A DNA stretch of 64,000 nucleotides from the NCBI GenBank assembly GCA_951812525.1, contig OX638316.1, forward strand, positions 2,142,630-2,206,629, written 5' to 3'. This document shows, in pieces, positions 34,849 to 42,732 of this stretch; the stretch's first letter is position 1; every line of letters starts with the position of its first letter. Source of the stretch: an uncultured Poribacteria bacterium (GTDB lineage: Bacteria; Poribacteria; WGA-4E; WGA-3G). The translations under genes were made by a program, and so were the position numbers. The notes below the pieces were generated by a model. That model saw only the letters and a list, made by a program, of their open reading frames with translations. It did no database searches and was not told the DNA's origin.

Positions 34849-36558
34849 GTGGAACGAGAAGATGATGTTCAATTGATTCACAAAATTTTATCGGGCAACG
34901 ATGCTGCGTTTGGCACCTTGGTTGAAAAGTATCAAAAGAGTGTTCATTCGCTTGTATGGGGGAAGATTGGCGATTATCACGATGCCGAGGATATTATGCA
35001 AGATGCCTTCCTTCAGGCATACAAAAAACTCGCGACACTCAAAGATCCCAATCAATTTGCTGGGTGGCTCTATGTCATTGCTAATCGGCTTTGCATTGAT
35101 TGGGTGCGGAAGCAAGACTGGATGGGAAGACAAAAGTTTGTGATGCAATCGCTGGAGGACACACCTGTGGCAGAGATCGAGAAGTCCTCTTATGCACATC
35201 ACGTCTCGGAACAGTGGGACACAGAGAGCACCGAGCATAGCCATGAGTTGGTGAAAAGACTTTTAGCAAAACTACCGGAGCGTGAACGTACGGTCGTGAT
35301 GCTCTACTATCTTGACGAAATGACAACGAAAGAGATCGGTAAATTCTTGGGTGTGTCGGTGAACACGATTACCAGTCGACTCCACCGAGCGCGAAAGCGT
35401 CTACAAGCAGATCAAGAACTCCTCGTTCATGGAATTCTCGGTGATGAACAGTTATCAGAAAATCTAATGGAGAACATTATGCAGCAATTAGAAAATATTC
35501 GCAGCAAGTTTGATTCGTTTATGGAGCAGGCGAAATCTGACCCTACATCAGGAGAGGATATCCTTACGGAAGCCTACAACCAGGTCGAAGCAGCACTTAA
35601 GGGTGAAATCACACCTGAATTGGCGCATCTCGCTGATGAGATATACGAGTATATGGGCAAACTCGGATTGGAGAAGAGTGTCTCTCTGCACCGTAGGTAT
35701 CTGACTGTCGCTTTAGATAGTAAGGAGCGTTTCTGGTCGCATCAGGAATTAGTGGGTAGCCTCGCTATGCTTCAGAGAAACACGGAAGTGATTGAGGAAC
35801 AGACTCGGCTTTATCGTTGGACGTGCGAAAATATGTCTGATGAATATGTTTTGAAGGTTATTGACCAGTTGACCGAAGCTTACTGTTGGACAGCGGAAGG
35901 TCGTGTTGATGAGTGGTTACAACTTTATAACGAAGCCTCTGAACGCTTAGAGAACCCTGAAGTGAGTCGCTACGAACATTGCTGGTTCCTGCAAGCCGGC
36001 GCAGAGGTCTTACGCGCCAACGACAGGTTAGATGAGACGCTTCTTGGAATGGAAAAGTTGGAACGTGCTAACGGCAAACCCGATTGGGAGCATTATTTCG
36101 GATTCTGGTTGGCTGTAAGAACAAATCGACTTCTGGTGTATAGCAAACGGGAAGACTGGAATCGTTTTGATCAGGTTTTTACGGAGGCGCGTACGTTTAT
36201 CGAAGGAGAATTGGAAAAACGGAATGCCGGTCATTCTGTAAATCTCTATAACCTTACATGGGCTGCGCACGATGTCGGTTGTTGCCTGTTGTGGTCGAAG
36301 AAGTATGACGAGGCGAAACATTTCCTACAGGTTGCCGTTGATTTGAACGACTACGACGCTTGTGGTCACTTCTTTCTTGCGGTAAGTATTTGGGCTTCTG
36401 AGAAGGACAGAGAAAAAACTTTGTGTCATTTAAAGGCGACTCAGGACTTTGTACTGAATTCTAATCGGGATATGTACTACCCCAATTTTCTTGAGACCCC
36501 TGAATTTTCGGATGTAAAAGATGATAAAGCATTTCTGGAAGCTCTGGGACAGAAGTAG
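34849..36558 (+). CDS. ECF sigma factor with long TPR-like C-terminal extension
   Basis: This 569-residue protein starts with an ECF sigma factor (about residues 1-190). Region 2 runs AFGTLVEKYQKSVHSLVWGKIG, DAEDIMQDAFLQAYKKL and FAGWLYVIANRLCIDWVRK. Region 4 runs LPERERTVVMLYYLDEMTTKEIGKFLGVSVNTITSRLHRARKRL. About 370 helical residues follow, with a TPR-like pattern toward the end (YDEAKHFLQVAVDLNDYDACGHFFLA) and no transmembrane segment, so the extension is cytoplasmic and may act as a built-in sensor. It starts at GTG 34849 after a perfect AGGAGG. The sigma part is closely related to the sigma factor at 39705. No separate anti-sigma gene is visible. Confidence 0.88.
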   Translation: MEREDDVQLIHKILSGNDAAFGTLVEKYQKSVHSLVWGKIGDYHDAEDIMQDAFLQAYKKLATLKDPNQFAGWLYVIANRLCIDWVRKQDWMGRQKFVMQSLEDTPVAEIEKSSYAHHVSEQWDTESTEHSHELVKRLLAKLPERERTVVMLYYLDEMTTKEIGKFLGVSVNTITSRLHRARKRLQADQELLVHGILGDEQLSENLMENIMQQLENIRSKFDSFMEQAKSDPTSGEDILTEAYNQVEAALKGEITPELAHLADEIYEYMGKLGLEKSVSLHRRYLTVALDSKERFWSHQELVGSLAMLQRNTEVIEEQTRLYRWTCENMSDEYVLKVIDQLTEAYCWTAEGRVDEWLQLYNEASERLENPEVSRYEHCWFLQAGAEVLRANDRLDETLLGMEKLERANGKPDWEHYFGFWLAVRTNRLLVYSKREDWNRFDQVFTEARTFIEGELEKRNAGHSVNLYNLTWAAHDVGCCLLWSKKYDEAKHFLQVAVDLNDYDACGHFFLAVSIWASEKDREKTLCHLKATQDFVLNSNRDMYYPNFLETPEFSDVKDDKAFLEALGQK

Positions 36559-36596
36559 GACAATCAATCATGTCCAATTGATTTGGTTTTAGCCTT

Positions 36597-37868
36597 ATGA
36601 AACTTCTTGATGCTATCACAGCGGGGGTAAAGCCCCTTTCCCAAAATAAACTCCGTGCAGGATTGTCCATTCTCGGCATTCTTATCGGGATTGCAGGTGT
36701 GCTGTGCATGGTCGCTATCGGCGAAGGTGGGAAAAAAATCATTACCGAAGACATCGAAAAGCTTGGCGGCGCAAATCAGTTCACGCTCTGGACGCGCAGA
36801 TCCATTTTCAAACGCCAACGGCTCGTTCGACGCACCACTGAACGATACACCTTTGAGGATGCTTATGCTATTGAGGCGGAATGTCCTGAAGTCCTATATG
36901 TCTTGCCGAATCATGAATCTTTTGAAAATTTTGTTAGCACGCGAGCTGGAAATCAAACCAGGGCATTTACGGAGGCTGCTACTGCGGACTATGCCCGCGG
37001 CATGAACTGGGAGCTACAAGCCGGTAGATTCCTCACCGAAAACGATGTAGAGACGGCAGCACAGGTCTGCGTCTTGGGATCTGAAATCGCTACTGAGTTG
37101 TTTGGAGATGTATCTCCAGTCGGGCAAGAGGTAAAGGTCCGGTTTTACTATCAGTGGCAGCAGAAGCCGGTACGGATGCGCGTTGTGGGTGTGATGAAAC
37201 CGAAGGGTCGTAGCCTCACCTGGGAGTATTGCTTGGATGATGCTCTCTGTGTTCCATTGACGACCTGTCAACAACGGCTTACGGGTAATCGCCACGTTGA
37301 ACACTTGATTGTCTTTTTTAAAAAGGGTGCCGATGTTAACAAGGTCATCGCTTCTGCTAAGGATGTTGTGCGTAAAAGACACCGTGGGCAGGACGACTTT
37401 ATTGGACACTATATACCAAAACTGACGTTTCGGCGGCTGGAGCACATCCAAAAAGTGATAAAAATCGCCTTGGGGAGCATTGCTGGTTTCTCGTTGTTGG
37501 TTAGTGGTATCGGCATCATGAATATTTGTCTTGTCTCTGTTGGTGAAAAGACGCGGGAGATAGGTTTACGTAAGTCGATGGGTGCGAAACAGATTGACAT
37601 CTTTTGGCAGTTCTTGTCGGAATCGATTTGTCTGTGTTTCTGTGGTGGGGTGCTTGGCATCGCTGGCGGTTGGGGTGCGGCGCAGGGGATGGCATGGCTG
37701 GCGATGCGGATTGTGCCAGTTGTGGATGCGTGGCCTGTCGAGTTATCCTTACCGTGGATACTGACCTCCGTCATTTTCTCAATTGTCATGGGCGTGGGTT
37801 TCGGTGTGTATCCTGCGATGCAAGCAGCGCGACTGTCACCTGTCGATGCGCTCCGCACCGAGAATTAA
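36597..37868 (+). CDS. MacB/FtsX-type ABC transporter permease without an ATPase partner
   Basis: This 423-residue permease has four predicted membrane helices: one near residues 23-43 (LSILGILIGIAGVLCMVAIG) and three in the C-terminal FtsX region (SLLVSGIGIMNICLV, FCGGVLGIAGGWGAAQGM and LTSVIFSIVMGVGFGVYPAMQAARLSPVDALR). A periplasmic domain of about 230 residues lies between them, as in MacB-like mechanotransmission transporters. The usual ATP-binding subunit and HlyD adaptor are not adjacent. The gene starts 38 bases after the first sigma factor, so it may share its transcript. The nearest adaptor is at 49284, on the other strand. Confidence 0.88.
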   Translation: MKLLDAITAGVKPLSQNKLRAGLSILGILIGIAGVLCMVAIGEGGKKIITEDIEKLGGANQFTLWTRRSIFKRQRLVRRTTERYTFEDAYAIEAECPEVLYVLPNHESFENFVSTRAGNQTRAFTEAATADYARGMNWELQAGRFLTENDVETAAQVCVLGSEIATELFGDVSPVGQEVKVRFYYQWQQKPVRMRVVGVMKPKGRSLTWEYCLDDALCVPLTTCQQRLTGNRHVEHLIVFFKKGADVNKVIASAKDVVRKRHRGQDDFIGHYIPKLTFRRLEHIQKVIKIALGSIAGFSLLVSGIGIMNICLVSVGEKTREIGLRKSMGAKQIDIFWQFLSESICLCFCGGVLGIAGGWGAAQGMAWLAMRIVPVVDAWPVELSLPWILTSVIFSIVMGVGFGVYPAMQAARLSPVDALRTEN

Positions 37869-38236: not shown

Positions 38237-39490
38237 ATGAAGAAAATATGGTTCGTTTTTTCAGTTTTTGTCGTGCTGGTGTTGAGTTTAAGCGTGAGTC
38301 TTCAAAGTTGTACCGCCAATAAGATAAATATAGAAGACACGTTGCATGGGAATGCAACGCTACAGGTGGATGCATATTGGGACCCGATCGCGGATTCTTC
38401 GCTGAATCTCCCTAATTATTCACCGAAACACGCTGCCCTTTTTAACGACCTTTCCCCGGCACGTCCGAGTCAAGAATATGACGCAGACGCTTTCAAAGCC
38501 TTTTTCCCGAAAGGAAACGCTGCCGTCGGCGATCTATGGGAACTTGACCCCAACACGATTGTTTCCTTTCTTCGACAGTTTCATTCGGGTGCGACTGCAG
38601 AGATGCATATAAACCCCGGGAGAGAGTTTGTTCATCAGGTGTTTAACTTCACTGTGTATCGATCAGGACCCGGATTCCAGTCAGAAGGGGCATTCGCGTG
38701 TCTGCGTGCACTTTCGCCATCGTATGGGGAAATTGACTTCAGAATCCATGCCGAATTTCTACTTGATAGCGATGCTGATGCTTACTTTACACCCGCACAA
38801 TTTACTGGACGTTTGATACTCAATCGGGACAATGGAACGGTTCGGGAGTTTTGGCTCTATTTGCCACCTCGCAATACCAATGTTGATATTAATGCCTATA
38901 ATTCAGCAGATATGGTTTTCGTGCCGCGTATGGAACTTATCGGACGAAACGTCCATGATCAAGGGGATATTGTTTGGGAGACATCCATCACGGAAAAAGA
39001 GGCGAGCGACTTGTTGGAGGCTTCCTTCTACAAGTTTGCCGAGATTGAGAGACTCTCTATTGAGGAGGTTATTGTCCAAGCACAAGCAGAAAATCGTCCA
39101 ATTCACGTTCTTATGACATGGGGTGTATTTGATGATGAATCGTGCTGAGCGAGCGGCAAAACATTGAGAGTGGGTCCACTCTCTTCATCAAAAGTTATTA
39201 AGCTGCTCAATAAACAATTTGTCAATGTATTCGTTCTTCTGGGTGATTTACCCGAACTCCAGAGTGGGTCAAGAGGTGAACAGATAAGCAGATTGGCACA
39301 AACGCTTGCCACGACGGTTGAAGATTCTGTTGCACAGGGTGCGGGTCGTTCGGTCAACAGTTTTGTTTTATCACCTGAGTTGGAGTTGGTAAGTCATTTA
39401 CCTTATCGAATAAAGCATAAGATGGGTATTAACGAAGAAGAATACGTAACGTTTCTAAAGGATGCTTTGGCAGCAGTTAAGAAGCGTTAG
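38237..39490 (+). CDS. selenoprotein N homologue 1 (selenocysteine at in-frame UGA)
   Basis: Read through one TGA (39146-39148), this is a 417-residue exported protein. The N-terminal segment ends LQSC (C25), a possible lipoprotein site. The body carries hallmarks I recognise from vertebrate SELENON: GAFACLRA, FRIHAEF (168-174), FTPAQFTGRL (184-193), AENRPIHVLMTWGVFDDESC, then UGA (residue 304) and ASGKTLR. Human SELENON has DDQSCUGSGRTLRE at the same place. After the UGA the frame stays open with the matching region VIKLLNKQFVNVFVLL and a thioredoxin-like ending to 39490. A SECIS-like hairpin follows the UGA. Vertebrate SELENON is a membrane oxidoreductase linked to calcium handling and protein folding. 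Here a redox role outside the cytoplasm is inferred. A start with AAGGAG eight bases upstream supports expression. Confidence 0.88.
39146..39183 (+). promoter_or_regulatory. Sec UGA and SECIS hairpin 1
   Basis: The TGA (39146-39148) is followed 17 bases later by GAGAGTG (39166-39172), loop GGTC (39173-39176) and CACTCTC (39177-39183). This is a perfect 7-bp stem with GG at the start of the loop, 25 bases from the UGA. It fits the bacterial SECIS rule (short stem close to the UGA, loop with a leading G, as in E. coli fdhF). Confidence 0.82.
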
Positions 39491-39704: not shown

Positions 39705-41027
39705 ATGATGGAAGATGATGTTCAACTAATTCACAGAATTTTGTCGGGCGACAACGAGGCGTTCACTGCTTTGGTCCGAAAACACCAAAAGGGTGTTCAC
39801 GCATTGGTGTGGCGGAGGGTTGGGGATTTTCATTTAGCTGAAGAGATTACGCAGGACACGTTTCTTCAGGTATACCAAAAACTCCCAACACTCAAGGATC
39901 CGCGTCGGTTCGCCGGTTGGCTGTATGTCGTCGCGAATCGATTTTGCGGTCAATGGATCCGAAAAAACAAATCTACAGTAATCCGGTCGCTGGAGACTAT
40001 AGCTATGGATGAGTTAGATAGATCGTCTTATGCACATCATGTATTGGAGCAGCGAGAAGAAGAACTCACCGAACAGCGCCATGAACTTGTCAAAAGACTT
40101 CTTGCAAGGCTGCCGGAGAGTGAACGGACAGTGGTGACGCTCTACTACCTCGGTGAAATGACGACGAAAGAGATTGGCAAATTCTTGGGTGTGTCGGTGA
40201 ATACGATTACGAGTCAACTCCAGCGTGCCCGGAAGCGTTTACAACAGGACGAGGAGCTTTTGGTTCAAGAGATGCTTGGGAGTGTTCCATTGTCTGCGAA
40301 CCTCGCGGAAAGCATCACGCGGAAAGTTATCGATATAAAACCGACACCATCTCCAACTGGCAAACCGTTAATACCGTGGGCATCTTTTAGTGTAACAGCG
40401 GTTTTGATTGTATTACTACTCGGTGTCAGCAATGAATATTTAGTTCGTTCCCAACAATCTTATAGTTTAGAGGCGACCTCAGAGATAAAAATTGACTTTG
40501 TGGAAACATCCGTGAGACCAATCATAAGTGTTAAACCTGCTCCGAGAACCCAACTTGGTCGAAAAGATACATCGGGCGAAAATAGTCGATCCAACCCACA
40601 AACGGCTGCGTTGCAAGTCGCGGGAATGCAAACGCAGGAGACAGGCGTACCCATAGAAGAAACGCGGCGAATTCAGACAGAGGTGTTAGACTTTTTTCGG
40701 ACACCTGAGAGAGGTCGTCAGGATTACACCGTTGTCAGCATAGATGCCACGGCGTTTGAAGATGGTGGTACGCTCACTATTGACATCCTCGTTGGCAGTG
40801 GCAAAGCAGCGGGTTCATTTGATCTGTTTAGTGGTGATAGTGAACTTCCCGCAGAAGGCACACCTACCAACGCACTCGTCAGCGAGTGGGGAATTCAACC
40901 CGGTGGAACGGGGGCGGTCTTTTATCGCTTCGACCGAGGTCAAGTCTTTCAATTAGGTGCTACTGGTGATTGGTTCAGTGAGAAGGGGAGCGTTAATGCT
41001 TTTCACGCACTAATTTCTATTCGGTAA
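39705..41027 (+). CDS. membrane-anchored ECF sigma factor with shared C-terminal domain
   Basis: This 440-residue protein has an ECF sigma factor in residues 1-190: region 2 around FLQVYQKL and FAGWLYVVANRFCGQWIRK, and region 4 LPESERTVVTLYYLGEMTTKEIGKFLGVSVNTITSQLQRARKRL. It is followed by one predicted transmembrane helix (about 224-246, PWASFSVTAVLIVLLLGVS), a low-complexity linker, and a 115-residue domain (326-440). That domain is shared with the second selenoprotein: LDFFRTP, QDYTVVSIDATAFEDGG, GSFDLFSGDSELPAEGT, WGIQPGGTG and YRFDRGQ. The domain should lie outside the cytoplasm and the sigma part inside. ATG 39705 has GGAG seven bases upstream. It is 40 bases before the second selenoprotein gene, so an operon is likely. 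Confidence 0.88.
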   Translation: MMEDDVQLIHRILSGDNEAFTALVRKHQKGVHALVWRRVGDFHLAEEITQDTFLQVYQKLPTLKDPRRFAGWLYVVANRFCGQWIRKNKSTVIRSLETIAMDELDRSSYAHHVLEQREEELTEQRHELVKRLLARLPESERTVVTLYYLGEMTTKEIGKFLGVSVNTITSQLQRARKRLQQDEELLVQEMLGSVPLSANLAESITRKVIDIKPTPSPTGKPLIPWASFSVTAVLIVLLLGVSNEYLVRSQQSYSLEATSEIKIDFVETSVRPIISVKPAPRTQLGRKDTSGENSRSNPQTAALQVAGMQTQETGVPIEETRRIQTEVLDFFRTPERGRQDYTVVSIDATAFEDGGTLTIDILVGSGKAAGSFDLFSGDSELPAEGTPTNALVSEWGIQPGGTGAVFYRFDRGQVFQLGATGDWFSEKGSVNAFHALISIR

Positions 41028-41067: not shown

Positions 41068-42732
41068 ATGAAAACATCGCGTATTGCTTGTCTGATTTTC
41101 GCCCTGTTTTTGCAATATGGGTTTGCAGATGAGACACCTACCTCCAACAAAATTATACTTACGCTTGACAACGATGCCAAGGTGTATGTTAAAGGTTTCA
41201 TTGCTCCAATTACGTACACCAAACATAACTTCCATGTGACGTGGGATGCGTTGGCGAATTTACGAGTTGCTGAGCCTGAAAAGTATTATCCTACCTCGAC
41301 CTTTCAGGTGTTTCTTCCAACTGAAGCGCGCTTGTATAAAAGAAAAAATAAAACTTTTCTGCAGGGATTGCGGGGCTTTTTTCGCAAAAGTTCTACAAAA
41401 AACGGAAATAGTGTTTCTGTCAGCGAAATCTGGCAAATTGAACAAGACGGGTTGCTGGAATTGCTAAGACAACTTCACCCGAATCCACATCTGGATATGC
41501 ACATCAATTCGGGAGATTCCGGTGGGGCGTGGGCATGCTTGCGCGCTTATAATGCCGAATTTGCAGATATTGTATTTCGTATTCATGCTGAATTCAGGTT
41601 AAAGAATGGTTGGTTTACGCCTTCACAGTTTACTGGACGTCTCGTTATTGATCGGGTTGAAGGGAAAGTCGTCTTCTTCGAGATGTACGTTCCCGACGGC
41701 ACAATCAACTTTGATGTCAACCGATACCATGGTGACGGTCCCTCTTTTGGCTCGGATACCGGCTTTTGTCCGAAAATCGAACTCCGTGCTGGTGCGGAAG
41801 ATGTAATTCAAGACCGCCAATTTTCTGAATCGATCACTTTAGCTGAAGCCGAGCGGATCCTGACGCTGCATTTTTACAAATCACAACAGATTAACTGGGT
41901 ATCGGTAGACGAAGCGTTAGAGATGGCGCAGGTGCAACAGAAACCGATTCACGTTATTTCAATAGGTGGTCCGCTTGATGATGAAGCGTGCTGAGCGAGC
42001 GGAAAAGGCTTAAGAGCAGTTGCTCTTTCTGATGATCAGAACGTTGAATTCTTGAATGAAAATTTCATCAACACTTGGGTGGTTGATACCGATATGGAGC
42101 GCTTGCGTGATACGAAAGGCACCGGCGAAATGTCCGCTTTGACCCGAACAATCGTCTGGAGTTGGAAAAGAGACTCAACGATAAATTGTTTAGTTATTTC
42201 GCCTGCACTTGAACTTATGGGAAGGCAAGCTGTTAATGAGTTCCTTCGTGGCAATATGGAAAAGCAGTACCGATTATTTCTTATAGAAGCCTTAGGAGGA
42301 AAACGCCCTGGGCTTGGTGAGAAAGGTCCGGTTCCTTTATCAAGCAGTCGGAGCGTTGTGCTTAGCCGTGTGCAGCCTTCAATAGAGGTATTAGACACTT
42401 TTCGGACACCGGTGGCAGGTTTTCAAGATTATACTGTTGTCATAATTGATGCCACGGCGTTTGAAAACGGTGGTGTTCTCACTGTTGATATCCAAGTCGG
42501 GAGGGCATCTCCGTTAGGTTCGTTTGATCTGTTCGATGGTAATAGCGAATTTCCTGCAGAAGGCACATCTGACGGAGCACTTGCCCATGCTTGGGGGATT
42601 CAACCCGGTGGAACAGGGAAAATTATATATCGGTTCGACAAAGGACAGATTTTCCGACTCAGGGCAACTGGCGGTTGGGTCGGTGAGGCAGGGAGTATGA
42701 ACGCTTTTCGGGCGCGGATCTCTGTTCAATAA
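41068..42732 (+). CDS. selenoprotein N homologue 2 with extra C-terminal domain (selenocysteine at in-frame UGA)
   Basis: Read through TGA 41992-41994, this is a 554-residue exported protein with an N-terminal signal peptide ending GFA. It has the same selenoprotein N hallmarks as the first homologue: GGAWACLRA, FRIHAEF (170-176), FTPSQFTGRL (183-192), QKPIHVISIGGPLDDEAC, UGA as residue 309 and ASGKGLR, followed by VEFLNENFINTWVV. The C-terminus adds a domain absent from vertebrate SELENON as I know it (residues 439-554: FRTPVAGFQDYTVVIIDATA and AWGIQPGGTGKIIYRFDKGQ). This domain is shared with the sigma factor directly upstream. The SECIS-like hairpin is at 42012-42027. The downstream part has no ribosome site of its own. 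Termination at the UGA would give a protein without the C-terminal half of the thioredoxin-like region. Confidence 0.88.
41992..42027 (+). promoter_or_regulatory. Sec UGA and SECIS hairpin 2
   Basis: The TGA (41992-41994) is followed by AAGAGC (42012-42017), loop AGTT (42018-42021) and GCTCTT (42022-42027). This is a 6-bp stem with G in the second loop position. The loop starts 24 bases after the UGA, against 25 in the first gene. The stem bases differ from SECIS 1 but pairing and distance are kept. Confidence 0.75.

Follow-up and report, generated by a model that had tools for sequence, protein, structure and literature searches.

A probable selenoprotein N-like family in Poribacteria, with members encoded beside a predicted transmembrane sigma factor

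Selenoprotein N works in the lumen of the endoplasmic reticulum (ER), where it is anchored to the membrane, and its defects lead to human congenital myopathies. In the human protein (SELENON), selenocysteine (Sec) 462 is part of an SCUG motif, and disease mutations occur at Gly463, Arg466 and Arg469 (PMC8967691; PMC3541580). A thioredoxin-like domain has been described for this protein, also termed SEPN1 (PMC7474598), and algal SELENON is found almost only in the Sec form (PMC7539508). Bacterial selenoproteins as a kind are already known, as is the SelN-like catalytic domain. A 2026 catalogue of 119 prokaryotic selenoprotein families and subfamilies does not include SelN (PMC13188914, Table 1), and no report of a bacterial SelN, of a Poribacteria selenoprotein or of SCUG in bacteria was found in the literature searched, in which subscription journals were poorly covered. 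Within that literature, the bacterial SelN-like family described here, its expansion and the domain that it shares with sigma factors appear to be new.

The gene under study lies in a window of 64,000 nucleotides (positions 2142630–2206629) taken from a host genome of 5.06 Mb in one contig, the named relatives of which are all Candidatus Poribacteria metagenome-assembled genomes. It occupies positions 41068–42732 of the window on the forward strand, stop codon included, and would encode 554 residues with one UGA read as Sec. The predicted product begins with a signal peptide (41068–41127, MKTSRIACLIFALFLQYGFA, assigned from the sequence by a simple hydropathy rule), followed by a mostly beta N-terminal domain (41140–41853, residues 25–262), a thioredoxin-fold domain with a C-U pair (41875–42303, residues 270–412) and a C-terminal beta-sandwich domain (42343–42729, residues 426–554), all on the same strand. 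The in-frame UGA (41992–41994, forward strand) corresponds to residue 309, and a bSECIS-like hairpin, AAGAGC-AGTT-GCTCTT, stands at 42012–42027 of this strand with its loop 23 nt past the UGA. On rechecking the sequence, the coordinates, the DDEAC-U-ASGKGLR motif and the frame open to 42732 given in the initial annotation were all exact. The second gene that it had reported, with the same architecture and motif, was likewise recovered at 38237–39490 on the forward strand, with 31% identity over the SelN part. This paralogue has a predicted lipoprotein signal, a UGA at 39146–39148 and a hairpin at 39166–39183, and is without the C-terminal domain. When every TGA of the window was scanned, only those of the two paralogues joined a long frame to more than 100 open codons (245 for gene 41068–42732 and 113 for the paralogue); the next-best TGA was followed by 61.

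A point overlooked in the initial annotation is that gene 41068–42732 is a member of a large family. The host genome holds six SelN-like genes with exactly one TGA each. Among 180 distinct Poribacterial homologues, the Sec column carries TGA in 175, Gly in four and Ser in one, with Cys, Trp, TAA and TAG in none. A homologue of the query was found in 65 of the 85 genomes of the phylum (E 1e-10), and a DNA-motif scan for C-U-[GA]-S-G-[KR] with TGA returned 276 sites (summed from the table) in 63 genomes, at most 12 in any one genome; the same pattern read backward as a control returned none. All 67 loci of one contig-collection scan belonged to Ca. Poribacteria, a count that leaves room for distant homologues elsewhere, the patterns being taken from a single protein. 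No homologue was found in IMG/VR or in plasmid and phage collections, and the SelN part matched no model in Pfam, NCBIfam or PADLOC.

The recurrence of TGA at one column upholds the earlier argument that two paralogues with UGA at the same position and homologous continuation do not represent nonsense mutations. The check proposed alongside that argument was for purifying selection before and after the UGA, and such selection was observed in both parts. Against eight orthologues, the median dN/dS of gene 41068–42732 was 0.20 upstream of the UGA, 0.17 in the thioredoxin part downstream and 0.19 in the C-terminal domain. Were these genes pseudogenes or the result of sequencing errors, the UGA would be a nonsense mutation and the part beyond it would be decaying. 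Nothing beyond the stop codon itself favors such a reading, which is refuted by the equally low dN/dS on either side and by the recurrence of the same codon at the same column; the frozen hairpin described below also speaks against it, and its probability is negligible.

The host genome encodes a complete set for Sec insertion, with SelA (515 bits), full-length SelB (336 bits), SelD and a tRNA-Sec (78 bits) that adjoins selB. A tRNA-Sec was found in 72 of the 85 genomes of the phylum. The selD of the host genome (L022:1417–2526) has an in-frame TGA of its own (KCAGUASK). In-frame UGA codons in conserved genes could also arise if the lineage used a variant code in which UGA is read as an amino acid, as it is in codes 4 and 25. 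In the window, however, TGA is a normal stop and ends 13 of the 41 genes, each SelN-like gene of the host genome has a single internal TGA, and a further TGA, which is likely the true stop, occurs within 25 codons past the last domain in 42 of 197 SelN-like frames with the C-terminal domain. Reassignment is refuted because the same genome uses UGA as an ordinary stop, which leaves it next to no probability and settles the check on the code that had been raised with the first description.

From +8 to +11 after the UGA synonymous codon usage is almost frozen, and this constraint relaxes on either side. The frozen bases form a six-pair stem with a loop of AGGU or AGUU, and all six pairs are formed in 151 of the 175 TGA sequences. 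Compensatory changes are evident at stem pair 3, which is G-C in 113 sequences, A-U in 25 and G-U in 14. The mean minimum free energy of the hairpin is −8.95 kcal/mol, compared with −2.21 kcal/mol for 2440 control pieces of 26 nt from these genes. Under a stricter control, random synonymous recoding within amino acids, the mean z for hairpin stability was a modest −1.43, because the encoded amino acids themselves favor the hairpin. In gene 41068–42732 the hairpin has 6 bp, the loop AGUU, a spacing of 23 nt and an energy of −10.3 kcal/mol (40-nt piece). Its size, loop G, spacing and energy are within the bSECIS model of PMC13188914 (Fig. 2). The family resembles the catalogued bacterial selenoproteins in insertion machinery and bSECIS layout and differs in that no SelN family is in their table. 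It differs from SELENON in having the hairpin directly past the UGA, the SECIS of SELENON being in the 3′UTR. SelB and tRNA-Sec, guided by this hairpin, would insert Sec at the UGA.

The copies that have lost Sec bear on how strictly it is needed. Gly, encoded by GGA or GGC, occupies the Sec site in four orthologues of gene 41068–42732 (L025, L029, L030 and L033), and Ser (TCA) is found in one copy (L098:2580–4226). In the tree, the Gly copies fall at no fewer than three separate positions among Sec orthologues (L033; L025; L029 with L030). A different place is taken by the Ser copy. The loop G has been lost from the hairpin in the two GGC copies, L029 and L030, where the loop reads AACU; in the two GGA copies and the Ser copy, hairpin and loop G are both intact. 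Since Gly replaced Sec at least three times, Sec is not indispensable in the clade of gene 41068–42732. Judged from these sequences, Sec is repeatedly dispensable here, with Gly and never Cys as the substitute. The Gly copies show that a residue other than Sec can be tolerated at the site, which would suit leaky termination, that is, mainly a 308-residue product with a minor extended product carrying near-cognate Trp or Cys in place of Sec. Such termination would remove most of the thioredoxin domain, because the UGA is at its active-site position. Neither Trp nor Cys is found at the site in any copy, and the Sec machinery and a bSECIS-type hairpin are present, so that leaky termination has a very low probability. 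In gene 41068–42732 the UGA falls at a redox-type site that is conserved, and the coding sequence beyond it is conserved as well. The gene very probably encodes a bacterial SelN-like selenoprotein, with Sec predicted at residue 309.

An AlphaFold2 model of the protein was built on 38 sequences (mean pLDDT 83.7). In this predicted structure, residue 309 lies between a strand (294–299) and a helix (313–319), and the best structural matches of residues 270–412 are DsbH (Z 12.7, rmsd 4.0, 121 aligned), AGR3 (Z 12.1, rmsd 2.4, 115 aligned) and ERp18/Rp19 (Z 12.1, rmsd 2.4, 114 aligned). ERp18/TXNDC12, AGR2/AGR3 and DsbH are without the other two domains of the SelN-like protein, and to our knowledge none of them is a selenoprotein. 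In the alignment of 38 sequences Cys308 never varies, the U+1 column is Gly/Ala, the U+4 column is Lys/Arg (Lys in 37 of 38) and U+7 is Arg in all 38; in gene 41068–42732, U+1 is Ala and U+4 is Lys. Human Gly463, Arg466 and Arg469 match the conserved columns U+1, U+4 and U+7, respectively. The family and animal or algal SELENON are alike in the Sec that follows Cys in a C-U-G motif, in the thioredoxin-like domain, in having a basic U+4 residue and an Arg three positions later (U+7), in the near absence of Cys forms and, for the bacterial copies predicted to be exported, in the N-terminal signal. They are unlike in the added C-terminal beta-sandwich and in copy number, which reaches 12 per genome in the bacteria, with many copies in tandem. 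No EF-hand, a possible further point of difference, was detected by Pfam in 38 bacterial members at E up to 1, in a run made without an animal-protein positive control.

The likeness to SELENON might instead be convergent, a C-U motif having evolved separately within a thioredoxin fold, in which case the bacterial family would be unrelated to it. The failure to detect an EF-hand and the lack of a Pfam model would agree with this, as would the outcome of PDB searches (2026 copy) with phmmer and with profiles, in which no solved relative was found that would allow direct comparison. The coincidence of the published disease positions with conserved columns argues against convergence. A stretch of SELENON also aligns over the catalytic domain, with scores of 147 and 196 compared with shuffled means of ∼32, which is a lead and not a test. 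Convergence is improbable. For the catalytic thioredoxin-like region, the original claim of a SelN homologue finds support in the published residue positions, with the aligned SELENON stretch as a lead.

The N-terminal domain modelled alone gave a pLDDT of 87.7 and a pTM of 0.85. Searches of solved structures gave no clear match (Z 5.2 at best; Foldseek E 0.25), from which novelty of the fold does not follow. By a simple hydropathy rule, a hydrophobic N-terminus is present in 30 of 31 SelN copies linked to a sigma factor, where it is predicted to be a signal peptide or a lipoprotein signal, and is missing in 103 of 116 copies in arrays. This split suggests that the family has two branches, one linked to sigma factors and exported, the other arrayed in tandem and signal-less. 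The protein of gene 41068–42732 is probably exported, and export is not general for the family because most tandem copies are without a signal peptide.

The initial annotation had singled out 116 extra C-terminal residues as a feature of this gene. The extension is real, but it is not special to the gene; in the fetched loci, which overlap in part, 197 of the 219 SelN-like frames contain at least one copy of the domain, as do 39 sigma-factor frames. It was also overlooked that this domain is common to a membrane-anchored sigma factor encoded between both paralogues (39705–41027, forward strand), in which it is 66% identical. ECF-type sigma-70 regions 2 and 4 were found in this protein, followed by a predicted transmembrane helix, which is our reading of a hydrophobic stretch, and then by the shared domain. 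In seven near-complete genomes, all nine sigma-factor genes with this domain, recognised by open frames of 442–472 codons, lie beside a SelN-like gene. Other ECF sigma factors with C-terminal extensions also carry, after regions 2 and 4, a predicted membrane helix with another domain behind it, but here that domain is the one found on the neighboring selenoprotein. In the predicted structure, residues 426–554 form a beta-sandwich with a fold like that of PliG, collagen-binding/pre-peptidase and GOLD domains (Z ∼9–12), although identity is 4%–18% in those comparisons, and no sequence-family match was obtained for the domain.

A second ECF sigma factor (34849–36558, forward strand), which has a long C-terminal extension with a weak TPR match, is without the shared domain and is regarded here as a neighboring gene. 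Within 34849–37868 it is followed by a putative MacB/FtsX-like permease, named from its sequence. In several other loci (L056, L058–L061, L064, L100, L111 and L112), a second, very large sigma-like frame of ∼770–1100 codons lies downstream of the SelN-like gene and the sigma gene with the shared domain, and this order is repeated. Promoter and terminator scans around gene 41068–42732 gave results at chance level.

From the sequence and the model, Sec309 would lie beside the invariant Cys308, just ahead of the first helix of the thioredoxin fold, and the pair may act as a thiol/selenol oxidoreductase outside the cytoplasm, like selenoprotein N in the ER lumen. A role in recognition is proposed for the C-terminal beta-sandwich. 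Since this domain also follows a predicted membrane helix in the sigma factor, the arrangement judged likeliest is one in which the two proteins either recognise a common ligand outside the cytoplasm or interact directly; expression would thereby be tied to conditions outside the membrane. That the shared domain makes the pair a redox sensor, by coupling enzyme and sigma factor, is speculative and draws on linkage and domain sharing. A full two-gene redox-sensing module is put forward tentatively and may well prove wrong. In it, the beta-sandwiches of both proteins would touch, or bind a common ligand, on the outer side of the cytoplasmic membrane, and the Cys-Sec pair would govern the sigma factor, placing transcription under selenium-dependent redox control; the signal-less tandem copies would be a second, cytoplasmic branch with its own role. 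The best reading is a bacterial SelN-like selenoprotein family, part of which is tied to a transmembrane sigma factor.

Such a family would enlarge the bacterial selenoproteome beyond the 2026 catalogue and points to heavy use of a single selenoprotein family. Its many natural variants, including Sec-to-Gly changes, would offer varied material for the structure and enzymology of SelN. The family is in keeping with the published enrichment of SelA and SelB in sponge symbionts (PMC5649159). Because a SelN-like family is present in a phylum of sponge symbionts, it becomes testable whether SELENON arose by descent or by transfer, either way, between host and symbiont.

At L059, L071–L073, L075, L083, L084, L087, L092, L103, L105 and L113, between three and six SelN-like frames stand in tandem on one strand. 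In many of these arrays the ends of the frames overlap, and some frames carry two or more C-terminal domains. A locus of the same order and another family (G014:C41:68573–72040) has four motif sites at a spacing of ∼1.15 kb, which suggests a tandem array of SelN-like genes that lack the C-terminal domain and may represent the older state.
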